Shown one piece after another: positions 55,007 to 62,796 of a stretch of DNA of 64,000 nucleotides. Source of the stretch: Opitutales bacterium (GTDB lineage: Bacteria > Verrucomicrobiota > Verrucomicrobiia > Opitutales > Intestinicryptomonadaceae); NCBI GenBank assembly GCA_015061945.1, contig SUVP01000001.1, positions 62,001-126,000 of the forward strand, in the 5' to 3' direction. The notes beneath the pieces were generated by a model. It had not been told where the DNA came from, searched no databases, and saw nothing but the letters and a program-made list of their open reading frames with translations. How positions within the stretch are numbered: position 1 is the stretch's first letter; each line of letters starts with the position of its first letter. The translations under genes and the position numbers were made by a program.

Positions 55007-56245
55007 ATGATGAAAAAAATATCTATACTACTTGGGATTATATTATCAAACACCTTATTGTTGTTAGCAATACTTTGCAACGATAGCAGAAAAGCCGAAT
55101 TTAATGGGCTTGATATGAATTTGGGAACGCTCTCAAAAATATCAAACGCACAAACACGTTCAATTTCAGCCGAAAATATGACGGGCGAAAAAAGTGGCGG
55201 AGCAAAAGCAGTACCGTCCTCGCCAAAGGTCAGAAACGTATCAAACGCATCGCACCCTGCAAAAGAGCTTGGCAAGGGTTGGAAAGTAAATCCATACTTG
55301 CACATTGCTCCAAACGAAGTTATTACAATCGCCGACATCAAAGGTTCGGGAGCAATCCAACATATTTGGATGACACCAACAGGCAACTGGCGTAACCTCA
55401 TCATCAGAATGTATTGGGACGGCGAAGAAAATCCATCTGTCGAAGTTCCGATGGGAGACTTCTTCTGTATGGGATATAATCAATTCGCCCAAGTTTCCTC
55501 ATTGCCTGTTTGTGTAAACCCAGGGCAAGCGTTTAACTGCTACTGGAAAATGCCTTTCAGAAAATCAGCAAAAATAACAGTTGAAAATCGTGGACCAAAA
55601 GAAAGAAACCTCTATTTCCAAGTTGATTATGTTTTGACTGAAATCGACGACAACGAAGCATACTTCCACGCACAATATCGTCAATCTTTCCCGACTAACA
55701 ACGCAATCCATACGATTCTCGATGGCGTCAAAGGGAAAGGTCAATACGTTGGTGCATACTTTGCTTGGCGTGTAAATAACACAGGTTGGTGGGGCGAAGG
55801 CGAAGTAAAATTCTATATCGACGGCGATACAGAATACCCGACAATCTGCGGAACTGGCTTTGAAGATTATATCTGCGGTTCGTACAATTTCGACGTCGGC
55901 AAAAAGTATGTTCCATTTACAACTCCATACGCGGGAATGCCTCAAGTAATTGCACCAAACGGAGCATACAAGCCTGCAGATTTTGGGCTTTACCGTTGGC
56001 ACATCGTTGATCCAATCCGCTTCAATTCAGATTTACGCATTACTGTTCAAGACTTGGGCTGGAAAAAAGGTTGGATTTATCTCCAACAAAAATCGGATAT
56101 TTCATCAGTCGCATTCTGGTATCAAACAGAACCACACGCAAAATTCCCGCCATTGCCATCTAAAGACGAGCTTTTCAAAAGAACAAAACCAGCAACTCAA
56201 GACGCAACAAAAGGTATCGGTTCAACACCAAACTTAAGCGAATAA
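55007..56245 (+). CDS. DUF2961/GH172-like protein
   Basis: The 412-residue protein has an N-terminal hydrophobic export segment (about 5-24), then a DUF2961 core (PF09998): KGSGAIQHIWMT, EVPMGDFF, WKMPFRKSAKI and GTGFEDYICGSYNF with Glu286. The family is now GH172, whose studied members act on difructose dianhydride I or D-arabinan; E in the GTGxEDY motif is among the catalytic acids there. The double jelly-roll core appears complete. Substrate here is unknown. No neighbours give a pathway. Confidence 0.85.
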   Translation: MMKKISILLGIILSNTLLLLAILCNDSRKAEFNGLDMNLGTLSKISNAQTRSISAENMTGEKSGGAKAVPSSPKVRNVSNASHPAKELGKGWKVNPYLHIAPNEVITIADIKGSGAIQHIWMTPTGNWRNLIIRMYWDGEENPSVEVPMGDFFCMGYNQFAQVSSLPVCVNPGQAFNCYWKMPFRKSAKITVENRGPKERNLYFQVDYVLTEIDDNEAYFHAQYRQSFPTNNAIHTILDGVKGKGQYVGAYFAWRVNNTGWWGEGEVKFYIDGDTEYPTICGTGFEDYICGSYNFDVGKKYVPFTTPYAGMPQVIAPNGAYKPADFGLYRWHIVDPIRFNSDLRITVQDLGWKKGWIYLQQKSDISSVAFWYQTEPHAKFPPLPSKDELFKRTKPATQDATKGIGSTPNLSE

Positions 56246-56327: not shown

Positions 56328-57167
56328 ATGTGGTACTATTCAAGAGACGGTAAAGAGAAGCAGGGTCCGATATCGGACGCTGCCGTAGCCGTCTATTATA
56401 GACGCAGACAGATAGACAGAACTACTCAGATGTGGTCTCCAAAACAAAAGAAATGGTTGCCATTAGAACAAACTTCTATCTACAAAAAAATACGCAAAGG
56501 CAGAACAAGCCAACATTTTGTCGACTTACAATATAACACACGTTTTCTCAGAGCTTTTTTGACATCACTATTAATTTGTGTGTTTGCCACAATTTATTAT
56601 AGATACAATAATATCTTAGAATATATCAACTTTATCGATAATGGAGGCGTTATGGATAAAGTCGATATGATGATTAAATCTACCGAAAATGCCCTCACGC
56701 AAAAATTGATATCGGCAGTACTTTTGATATTATTTGTATTTTCGGCATACTTCTTGTTCAAGTGGGTCAAATGTTCGGTATCAAACGCAAAATTATTTGT
56801 AAAACGCTTTTCGTTCCCACCAAATTTTTCTGCGTTAAGTTTTATAATTCCATTTTTAAATATATTTATCCCGCACAAAATTTTGTCGGAAACATTTCGT
56901 TCAACGCTGAAATCGCTGAAGATGCGAGTTAAGGTAAGATATATTCTCTTGCTATTGACTTGGCAAATTTATTGGTCGATATCATTTTTTATGTTGGTGA
57001 TTGCTCAATTTATTTTGCCAACCACTGGACAGACCGATTTGTTTATGCCACTTTTTGTGATAAGAATTTTCTTCAATATTACTTACGCAATAACGATAAT
57101 TCTTACATTGATGTTGATAACAATCCTCTATAATTTGCAACGCAAACGCCTTGCACTTTATAAGTAA
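56328..57167 (+). CDS. GYF_2 (DUF4339) plus DUF4328 membrane protein
   Basis: The 279-residue protein begins with a GYF_2 domain (2-50: WYYSRDGKEKQGPISDAAV and the later MWSPKQKKWLPL), thought to bind proline-rich or other protein segments. A DUF4328-type membrane region follows, with about four membrane segments and FSALSFIIPFLNIFIPHKIL. The role is unknown. It is convergent with the next gene with no base between the two stop codons. Confidence 0.85.
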   Translation: MWYYSRDGKEKQGPISDAAVAVYYRRRQIDRTTQMWSPKQKKWLPLEQTSIYKKIRKGRTSQHFVDLQYNTRFLRAFLTSLLICVFATIYYRYNNILEYINFIDNGGVMDKVDMMIKSTENALTQKLISAVLLILFVFSAYFLFKWVKCSVSNAKLFVKRFSFPPNFSALSFIIPFLNIFIPHKILSETFRSTLKSLKMRVKVRYILLLLTWQIYWSISFFMLVIAQFILPTTGQTDLFMPLFVIRIFFNITYAITIILTLMLITILYNLQRKRLALYK

Positions 57168-58857: not shown

Positions 58858-61800
58858 TTAATTACCCAAAATAACAAATGGGAATTTGTCGGGGTACACC
58901 TCGAGTTTGTCAGTTGATGTTGAATTTGTCAGGCGTGCTTTTGCTTCTGGCGATTGTGAATCGTCAAAATCGTTGACAATTACCCCAAAACCGAGCGACG
59001 CATTTTGCGTTGGTTTGAAAGGCAACATCGATGTCCCCTTAAAGCAAATTTCAAAAACATATCCGCCTTCGATTTTTTTGAAAACTGCGTCGACATCATT
59101 TGCCAACGTGTGCTGTTTAGCTCCCAAAATTCCCAAAGTTAGCTGTGCGTCGGGGACAAACTGCCGATACACTTTTATTGTTCCGTCCTTCGATTTCCAA
59201 ATTCGATAATGCCAATCGTTTGAATTTAAACCGATAGTAGAGCTATCGTCTGATGCATCGCACAACGTATCAAAAATAAATTCAACGCTATCGCATTTGG
59301 AATCGTTATCAACTGCTCCGCCCTTTCCAGTCAGAATTGTGGAATCTCGGACGATAACTGCGACGTACAAATTGTTATCTTTCCACGCTGTCTTGTATTC
59401 TGCCGAAAAATCGTCTTTTGTCGGGGTAATTCCTTTTTTCCAAAGTTTAGATGCACGTCGCATATTATCTAATTTTATCGACGGCACGCCACTCCAATCG
59501 GAAATATCGCCATCAAGATTTATCGATGCGAGCTTGGCTTGATACGCACGATAACTTTTATCAAAACTCATCGACTTCTTCTCGGGAAAATCGACATTAA
59601 GCGAGAGTTTAAGCGGAATAGTTGATATGCCATCGCTCGTAATTTTTTCAAAAGAGCTAAACGAAAACTTAGAGACTTTGCCAGCTTGAATATCAAATTT
59701 CTTTGAATCTGCACGCACTGCGACCTCACCCGACATCGTCGATACATAAGGATTTTCCACTTCAACTATGTTTGAATTTATCGATTCTATTCGTGTGCGA
59801 ACAATCGGATTTATCGGGATATTCGATTTCCCTTTTGACAATTTCAACATCGCCTTTACATCGTCCATCGTTCCTTCTTCGCCGACCAAGAACACAGGGA
59901 AAATCGAAAGTGGAAGATTAAAGTTGCCGTTAAAATCGGTTTCGATTTTTTTCTCCGCCTGCATTAAATCGAACAAGCGTAAATTTTTTATCGGCTTAAA
60001 GGATAACTCTGGAGCCTTTTGAAAACCTCTATCAAATTCTTTTTTGCATGCCCAAATTGCGACAACTGGTCGATTCTTTTCATCTTTGAAAATATAACAA
60101 CGAGTATCGGGAAAAAGGTTTAATTCCTCCTCAAACGTTGAATTGCCGAGCAACACGCCGAGCGTGTTTGGAACTTTGTCGTATGCAAATGGCGTCAACA
60201 TTGCGTCCATTTGCGATACCCCATAATTAGACGCATTCATACATTTAATACGTTCGTGTTTCAAACCTAACAACCACGTTCTCGCACGTAGAGCCGTTGC
60301 CAAACGCTCACCGTGTCCGATGTCGTAGGTGTAAGGCAACACTCCGAACAACGCATTTTTCCGACGTGAATAGTCGTCTATAAAACAGACATCATAGCAA
60401 TGAATCGGCAACCAGTGCAAACCTTCGGGCGAGTAAATAGGTACATTTTCATAGCCGTGTTTTTTCAGAATTTCAAATAACGATTGATAATTCTCCTCGA
60501 GTGTCGGACGTGGATATTCGGGAGCTCCACGATATATATGAACTCCAATTGCATCGTATTTAACGCCACGTTTTGCAGTTTCGCCCAAGAGATTATCAAA
60601 ATAATTTAATCTATCTTTTCTCGCCAATGTTGATGTTACGCTTGTCGAGAGAATCGCATTTGGATTACCTTTGCGGACTCCACGAGCGATTGCACATTCA
60701 ATCTCGATATACATCAGAAAGTCTTCACGCTTTGCAAAATCTGGATTTGCGAAGTAAGTCATCGAGCCTTCTGGCTCTCCAAAACCGCCCCAAATTTTTA
60801 TCCACGGGTTTTCTCTCGCCTTTTGTTCTGCGACTGCTTCAACCTTTTCGAGATACTTTGGTGTGATTTCTTTTTCGGGCAAATTCTGCCAATAGTCGAG
60901 CATCGTGGCTTTCTTTTTCGTCAATTTTGGAAATGAAAACCAATTCACATTACTCAAAAATAGCATTTCTCGTCCATGTTTATTTTTAGGAGTTCTTTGA
61001 ATTCTCCCGATATAAGTTATGAGCGAGTCTACGCCGTATTTTTGTGCTGTTTCAGCGATGAGCTTGTCATTGTTCATATATCCAGCACGAGCACCGTATC
61101 CCAATGCTTTGTAGCGAGCCAATAACTCTGGGAAAAACTGTTGGGTCGAAAGTGGGTCGACGTATGTATCTACAAACAAATTCTTATGTTTGTGTTCATT
61201 CTTCAAGAAGTCGGCTATTGTGAAACGCTGAATATTGTAGTGTTCTCGGTCGCCTTGCTTATATTTTGTCTTGAGCAAAAATATGCCTCTATCGAATTTT
61301 TCAAAGTCGAGCGGAATAGTTGCAACTCCTGACGAATCGGCTTTAAATGATTCATTTTTTGAAAAAATGTTTTCGCCAAAAAAGTCCTCGACATCTATTT
61401 CGACACTGCCCTCACCATTTGCAATCGTCGATATTTCGAGCTTTGCATCGACTTTCTTCCCGTACTCAATGAAGTTTTCGGGCGACGATGTTATAAGCAT
61501 ACCTTCGGCACACGGAGGCTCATAATCTGTTGCGATTTTTCCTCTTTCGAGTTGCATTGCGTCGATATAACAAGTTGCAGGAGAATCCGATTCAGCCAAA
61601 AATACAAATGGCACAACTTGTGCAGTTGCGATAGAGAACGTTAACTCGTACCTTTTCCACTCGTTTGTCAAATCGACTTTTTTAGCAATCCACTCGCTCT
61701 TATTGTACAATTTATGTGGATTTGCCAGCATCAAAGTAAGAGACTGTTTTTTTGCGTCGGTCTTTGCCCAAACGCTGAAAACATAATCACCTTTTTCAAT

Positions 61801-62796
61801 CGCAACACTTGCCGTTGATATTTGTTGTCGCAATGCTTTCTCGTTAGAATCTGAAAATATCGACAAGCACTTGCGACCATATAGTGCAGTATTGTCGCAA
61901 ATTTTTACAGGCTTAATTTTCCATAATTCTTCATTTTGCAATGGGCTTAAAAAGTGTCGGAACGAAAGATACTGAAAGCCCATTTCAAAAGAAGAATTTT
62001 GCATCAGATTTTTTTCGCGAGTATCGGGCAGAATCATTCTTTCTTCAGCCCAAAAGTTTATATCGCCAATTTTGTGAACAGCGTCGAACGGGACAGGTGG
62101 AGTCTTTGCAATGCGGACACTCCCCATATCGAGCCTAAACGAAAACTCCGACGCAAAAGTCAACTCAACTTCACATCTCGATTTTTGCACTCTCAACAAT
62201 AATTTCGGCTTATCTTTTGTCATTATTGAAAATGACGATTCTTTTGAATCTGCCGAAAAAGTAATCTTTTTAACGTTTTCAAAAGTTTGCGTTGAACCAG
62301 CTTTTGTATTCGTAGAAATGAGAAAAGATTTTCCGTCCACATCGATAGTTGAGTCAGCAAAAAAAGTGTACGGCAAAATAAAACGCATCTTCATTTCTTG
62401 TGCTTCAAATTTGCCTGAAAACGACAATCGCTTCTTCTTATTTAAACTTACTTTTACTTCGCCACCATTTGAGAATTTCAAAATTTTTTTATTCTTTTCT
62501 TTTGATGTTTCCGACACCTTTAATTTCATTTGGTCGGCAAAAAAATCTATTTCAGTAAAAGCTCTGCCAGTATCGACAAAAAAGAATCTCAAGATATTTT
62601 TAATTTCAGAAAATCCGATTGTCCCACCACGTGCATAATAATATTTTGCGTCGTCAATATCAACATTTCGGACCCATTCATATCCTTTTTCTTCAAAGGT
62701 TGGAGGCGGATTATACAACGACGGCAAATCTTTTGCTACCACCACCGTATATGCTGACAAAAACACACATAACAAGCCAAAATAAAATCGTTTCAT
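58858..62796 (-). CDS. Large exported modular glycosidase-like protein
   Basis: The 1312-residue protein has a signal peptide (1-21), an N-terminal beta-rich region (to about 260), a CBM4/9-type carbohydrate-binding domain (about 263-425: NSSFEMG, YIDAMQLERG), and a TIM-barrel-like region (about 540-900). In the last, Glu674 in GGFGEPEG and Glu791 in IYSPEGLHW sit where clan GH-A enzymes hold acid/base and nucleophile, with GEP instead of NEP. The C-terminus (about 1090-1312: LDGDISDWSG, YKTAWKDNNLYVAVIVRD) is CBM9-like. I cannot place the barrel in a named GH family. It is likely an enzyme on the surface or outside the cell for a complex glycan. Confidence 0.8.
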   Translation of the reverse strand: MKRFYFGLLCVFLSAYTVVVAKDLPSLYNPPPTFEEKGYEWVRNVDIDDAKYYYARGGTIGFSEIKNILRFFFVDTGRAFTEIDFFADQMKLKVSETSKEKNKKILKFSNGGEVKVSLNKKKRLSFSGKFEAQEMKMRFILPYTFFADSTIDVDGKSFLISTNTKAGSTQTFENVKKITFSADSKESSFSIMTKDKPKLLLRVQKSRCEVELTFASEFSFRLDMGSVRIAKTPPVPFDAVHKIGDINFWAEERMILPDTREKNLMQNSSFEMGFQYLSFRHFLSPLQNEELWKIKPVKICDNTALYGRKCLSIFSDSNEKALRQQISTASVAIEKGDYVFSVWAKTDAKKQSLTLMLANPHKLYNKSEWIAKKVDLTNEWKRYELTFSIATAQVVPFVFLAESDSPATCYIDAMQLERGKIATDYEPPCAEGMLITSSPENFIEYGKKVDAKLEISTIANGEGSVEIDVEDFFGENIFSKNESFKADSSGVATIPLDFEKFDRGIFLLKTKYKQGDREHYNIQRFTIADFLKNEHKHKNLFVDTYVDPLSTQQFFPELLARYKALGYGARAGYMNNDKLIAETAQKYGVDSLITYIGRIQRTPKNKHGREMLFLSNVNWFSFPKLTKKKATMLDYWQNLPEKEITPKYLEKVEAVAEQKARENPWIKIWGGFGEPEGSMTYFANPDFAKREDFLMYIEIECAIARGVRKGNPNAILSTSVTSTLARKDRLNYFDNLLGETAKRGVKYDAIGVHIYRGAPEYPRPTLEENYQSLFEILKKHGYENVPIYSPEGLHWLPIHCYDVCFIDDYSRRKNALFGVLPYTYDIGHGERLATALRARTWLLGLKHERIKCMNASNYGVSQMDAMLTPFAYDKVPNTLGVLLGNSTFEEELNLFPDTRCYIFKDEKNRPVVAIWACKKEFDRGFQKAPELSFKPIKNLRLFDLMQAEKKIETDFNGNFNLPLSIFPVFLVGEEGTMDDVKAMLKLSKGKSNIPINPIVRTRIESINSNIVEVENPYVSTMSGEVAVRADSKKFDIQAGKVSKFSFSSFEKITSDGISTIPLKLSLNVDFPEKKSMSFDKSYRAYQAKLASINLDGDISDWSGVPSIKLDNMRRASKLWKKGITPTKDDFSAEYKTAWKDNNLYVAVIVRDSTILTGKGGAVDNDSKCDSVEFIFDTLCDASDDSSTIGLNSNDWHYRIWKSKDGTIKVYRQFVPDAQLTLGILGAKQHTLANDVDAVFKKIEGGYVFEICFKGTSMLPFKPTQNASLGFGVIVNDFDDSQSPEAKARLTNSTSTDKLEVYPDKFPFVILGN

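Follow-up and report, generated by a model that had tools for sequence, protein, structure and literature searches.

The gene at 58858..62796 (minus strand) of the 64,000-nucleotide stretch of Opitutales DNA analysed here, which comes from a gut bacterium of the Verrucomicrobiota and is hereafter the window, raises the question of whether the large protein that it encodes is a glycosidase and, if so, where its catalytic barrel belongs among the known families. The evidence presented below indicates that the protein is very probably an exported multidomain glycoside hydrolase of an uncharacterised family in clan GH-A, either sister to GH39 or a remote branch of it.

Domain organization of the protein

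The reading frame starts with an ATG at 62796 and runs for 1312 codons with zero internal stops. The open frame and the existence of full-length relatives identify its product as a multidomain putative secreted glycosidase. The coordinates and length given in an earlier note on this DNA were confirmed by re-reading, and the strand, absent from that note, is minus, as it is for all parts of the gene described below. Residues 1–21 (62734..62796) have the sequence pattern of a putative Sec signal peptide. From the N-terminus, MKRFYFGLLCVFLSAYTVVVA, we infer a Sec-type leader that would direct the protein to an extracellular location.

Behind the leader, residues ~35–228 (62113..62694) are predicted by AlphaFold2 (AF2) and VIA-align to form a β-supersandwich like that of galactose mutarotase and of domain 5 of β-galactosidase. 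The AF2 model of residues 22–262 is of moderate quality (pLDDT 72.5), and the best VIA-align match of the supersandwich is the galactose-mutarotase-like structure 3mwx (Z 14.5, 184 aligned residues, 3.0 Å). The following β-sandwich, at residues ~260–425 (61522..62019), has a profile match to CBM4-type xylanase modules and belongs to CBM_4_9 (PF02018), which matches residues 331–397 with an E-value of 6e-6 and 27 bits, above the curated cut-off of 25.9. The C-terminal domain, at residues ~1086–1310 (58867..59541), is CBM9-like: PF06452 (CBM9_1) matches residues 1116–1293 (E 5e-13, 49.8 bits, above the curated cut-off of 23.4), and the profile matches the CBM9 structure 1i82 (E 2e-13). It is preceded by a probable second Ig-like spacer (residues ~984–1086, 59539..59847), where the profile weakly matches designed chains of the Ig-like type. 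CBM_4_9 and CBM9_1 are the only Pfam matches of the protein, and they lie, as the earlier note had described for CBM4/9-like and CBM9-like domains, on either side of a Pfam-blank region that contains the barrel. A phmmer search against the PDB returned only a weak CBM9 match, and the sole NCBIfam match, to a spike-fibre domain in the CBM region, was marginal.

Predicted structure of the catalytic module

Enzymes of clan GH-A contain a (β/α)8 barrel with an acid/base Glu ending strand β4 and a nucleophile Glu ending strand β7, and they hydrolyse their substrates with retention. We ran AF2 on residues 238–990 with an alignment of 31 sequences, and the resulting model has a mean pLDDT of 86.5 and a pTM of 0.91. 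The CBM sandwich is followed in the model by an Ig-like β-sandwich at residues ~431–528 (61213..61506; strands at 194–291 in model numbering), the predicted catalytic (β/α)8 barrel at residues ~535–883 (60148..61194), and the C-terminal β-sandwich of the catalytic module at residues ~887–973 (59878..60138). The barrel consists of eight strand-helix repeats, with pLDDT values mostly at or above 90 outside the loops. The motifs GEPEG (residues 673–677) and SPEG (789–792) were re-read from the DNA, and the spacing of 117 residues between Glu674 and Glu791 is the one reported previously. Glu674 (60775..60777), the predicted acid/base, is model residue 437 and follows strand β4 (431–433), whereas Glu791 (60424..60426), the predicted nucleophile, is model residue 554 inside strand β7 (550–557). 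The structure prediction that the earlier note had proposed thus yields a barrel with both glutamates on the expected strands, and its proposal of a clan GH-A-type barrel is upheld by the model and by the alignment of the two residues with those of GH39. The predicted orientation of Glu674 and Glu791 towards the pocket rests on strand position and alignment.

Raw Foldseek E-values placed multidomain GH2 enzymes first, with TM-scores of 0.2–0.3 and rmsd above 20 Å. These matches were taken as domain-order artefacts, and VIA-align rows were therefore used instead. The top fold matches among those listed are clan GH-A type enzymes, the best of them being GH39wh2 from Bacteroides cellulosilyticus WH2 (5JVK), with a Z-score of 23.2 over 436 residues and an rmsd of 3.9 Å. 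The alignment starts at model residue 194 and includes the Ig-like sandwich, so that the two proteins share an N-terminal β-sandwich, the (β/α)8 barrel, and a C-terminal β-sandwich. However, they are only 16% identical, and GH39wh2 is without the mutarotase-like, CBM4/9, and CBM9 modules within the aligned range. The next match is PslG, a GH39 endo-glycosidase of Pseudomonas aeruginosa (5BX9, 4ZN2, 9G17; best Z 20.4), which shares the barrel and the C-terminal sandwich over ~355 residues at a Z-score of 20. PslG differs in its sequence (13% identity), in acting on the self-produced Psl, and in that its solved chain is without CBMs. Both PslG and GH39wh2 were described as groove-type endo-enzymes (PMC6933502). 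Behind PslG, GH79, GH44, GH39, GH51, and GH30 enzymes form a tied group with Z-scores of 16–18 among the matches listed.

Of the families that the earlier note had named for comparison, GH39 supplies the top fold match (5JVK) among those listed. GH30 is represented within the best 50 fold matches by the chain of Xyn30D (4QAW), whose Z-score of 16.5 is at most 1 from those of the GH39 xylosidases. GH5 and GH42 were not prominent within these 50 matches, and kinship to either may still exist. A Pfam search of the window protein at E<=1 gave no GH5, GH30, or GH42 match.

Kinship to GH39

The barrel profile, searched against the PDB, matched GH39 xylosidases with an E-value of 7e-7, and Glu674 was aligned with Glu160 of XynB1. 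The classical GH39 β-xylosidases (1PX8, 2BS9, 6YYH) have E-values of 7e-7 to 2.5e-5 and aligned catalytic glutamates, but they are ~12% identical to the window protein and have an exo pocket, an NEP motif, and no CBMs. Profile matches to designed PPR and alpha-solenoid proteins were discarded as repeat artefacts, each stretch scoring below 10 bits.

The profile of 31 barrels was compared by hhalign with a profile of 20 GH39 sequences from the same phylum, and the match reached 97.3% (E 2.5e-11, score 91). In this alignment, Glu674 falls on the acid/base residue (the Glu of NEP) and Glu791 on the nucleophile (TE). The match is partial, extending over ~125 columns from the acid/base through the nucleophile. 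Shuffled and reversed GH39 controls scored 12–19, and GH39, GH51, GH44, and GH128 compared pairwise with each other scored at most 70, under the 91 of this family against GH39. The same barrels gave 89.3% with GH128, 37.6% with GH44, and 11% with GH51, all below the value for GH39. GH51, GH44, GH79, and GH128 have the same barrel type with Glu on β4 and β7, but the first three, found by fold, are weaker matches there (Z 16–18), and GH128, found by the profile search, is the weaker profile match. The subclade of the window protein alone was less decisive, with 67% for GH39 and 80% for GH128. Identity to the nearest known GH39 relatives is at most 16%. Kinship to GH39 is well supported by these comparisons of profiles and predicted folds. 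The barrel, which the earlier note had called unplaced, is indeed claimed by no Pfam glycoside hydrolase family, but it can be placed beside GH39 by fold (5JVK, PslG) and by profile.

The family could be a remote branch of GH39 for which the Pfam model is too narrow, as it is for PslG-like and GH39wh2-like members, and we give this reading a little less than an even chance. The nearest fold is that of a GH39 structure, 5JVK, with the same order of Ig-like domain, barrel, and sandwich; GH39 is the best match by profile; and accepted GH39 members are themselves only 13–17% identical to one another (PMC6933502). Against it stands the behaviour of the GH39 model PF01229, which has no match to the window protein even at E<=1 and matches one of the 31 relatives (E 2.5e-5), yet it has matches in 110 of the 240 genomes searched from the phylum. 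That the protein founds a new CAZy family within clan GH-A is similarly close to, though short of, evenly balanced. At least 30 diverse full-length members form a coherent group with invariant residues of its own and no Pfam glycoside hydrolase assignment. However, two independent methods find GH39 closest, and the group is set apart by Pfam models, so that a CAZy family for which Pfam has no model may already cover it. CAZy practice asks for the biochemical characterisation of a member before a new family is recognised.

The position of the barrel between carbohydrate-binding modules would also suit a protein in which the barrel is dead and which, instead of catalysing a reaction, binds glycans or acts as a scaffold. 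This is highly improbable, since even very divergent members all retain both glutamates and the His-x-Tyr motif, which is unexpected in a dead barrel.

Conserved residues and distribution of the family

Glu674, Glu791, His753, Tyr755, Asp825, and Arg839 are invariant in 31 of 31 sequences, comprising the window protein and 30 relatives with barrels ~22–50% identical to it. The motif His753-x-Tyr755 (60532..60540) is located at the end of β6. In an overlapping wider set, Glu674 is kept in 26 of 27 sequences and Glu791 in all 27. Given the invariance across such divergent relatives, the predicted catalytic pair is not due to chance. The column of the Asn of NEP contains N, G, T, S, Y, and others across the family, and the Glu alone is fixed. 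The replacement of NEP by GEP, to which the earlier note had drawn attention, is true of the window protein but unremarkable because this Asn varies, and relatives have NEA, NEP, GEV, TEP, or NEE.

Within the phylum, 33 of 387 genomes contain a relative, in many cases full length. Scanning named genomes identified 36 loci, mostly in Lentisphaeria, the other hosts being Spartobacteria, Opitutales, Kiritimatiellae, one member of Planctomycetota, and the Bacteroidota isolate Marinoscillum furvescens DSM 4134. One copy (CAIVGC010000242.1) is on a 3-kb contig labelled Methylococcaceae and groups with a Kiritimatiellae sequence; the copy was probably mis-binned, and the bin may be contaminated. No description of this glycosidase family turned up in searches of the literature.

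Proposed mechanism

The predicted protein would leave the cytoplasm by its Sec leader, and the CBM4/9-like and CBM9-like modules would keep the enzyme on a polysaccharide. The barrel would act as a retaining enzyme of the Koshland type: to cut the glycosidic bond, Glu674 would protonate the leaving group, Glu791 would form the glycosyl-enzyme, and water would resolve this intermediate with retention. By analogy with clan GH-A enzymes, the most likely chemistry is hydrolysis with retention, in which Glu674 serves as the acid/base and Glu791 as the nucleophile, and kinship to PslG and GH39wh2 suggests endo-action. The fold is familiar and the chemistry probably is too, so that the enzyme is probably of an ordinary kind, whereas the family is worth assaying. 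With its recognition, "hypothetical, carbohydrate-binding" proteins of Lentisphaeria and Verrucomicrobiota from gut and marine habitats become a coherent glycosidase family with named predicted catalytic residues, which is useful for annotation. If the substrate is new, CAZy would gain a family; if not, GH39 would be widened.

Genomic surroundings

Neighbours of the relatives encode Gfo/Idh/MocA, GH36, GH29, GH42-like, GH141, GH130, and rhamnosidase-like proteins and an MFS sugar-type transporter, with LacI and GntR regulators beside them. These genes point to fucose-, rhamnose-, or galactose-bearing glycans of plants or hosts as possible substrates. Of 24 testable Lentisphaeria loci, 14 have a pseudopilin gene (motif FTLIELL, SBP_bac_10/DUF1559) as the immediate upstream neighbour, as do L031 and L042, with the motif ~0.4–0.85 kb upstream of the glycosidase frame (loci L031, L033, L034, L036, L038, L040–L044, L047–L049, L051, L053, and L054). 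The background frequency of the motif is 0.037 per kb. The upstream pseudopilin gene is absent from the window and from genome G403. The pseudopilin is possibly an export or surface-assembly partner in Lentisphaeria. We speculate, while considering it rather unlikely, that the proteins form a new clan GH-A family of Lentisphaeria and other gut and marine PVC bacteria with a specificity other than that of GH39, for example for a fucose- or rhamnose-bearing glycan, and that export in Lentisphaeria is aided by this dedicated upstream pseudopilin.

The window copy lies between groEL and ribE, and no sugar genes are adjacent. Among the 13 other genomes in the genus, only 1 has an orthologue, which is 50% identical and at a different place; ribE is found in 12 of the 13. 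In a quick tree, the window copy and the genus orthologue nest among Lentisphaerota sequences (SH-aLRT 99–100). Transfer from Lentisphaeria is suggested as the simplest reading.

Elsewhere in the window, a DUF2961 protein of 412 residues (Pfam, E 3e-91) is encoded at 55007-56245 on the plus strand, and the DUF2961 family corresponds to GH172 (PMC8605356, PMC10115798). This gene was left out as a partner because it is 2.6 kb away on the opposite strand, with three unrelated genes between. The gene at 56328-57167, also on the plus strand, encodes a membrane protein in which Pfam identifies GYF_2 and DUF4328 domains. The orthologue in G403 is convergent with a frame for a 1122-residue protein (L090:948-4316) that matches GH42 and CBM_4_9 marginally. 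A related 300-residue frame (L090:18-920) is also present, and the two frames are possibly tandem paralogues.
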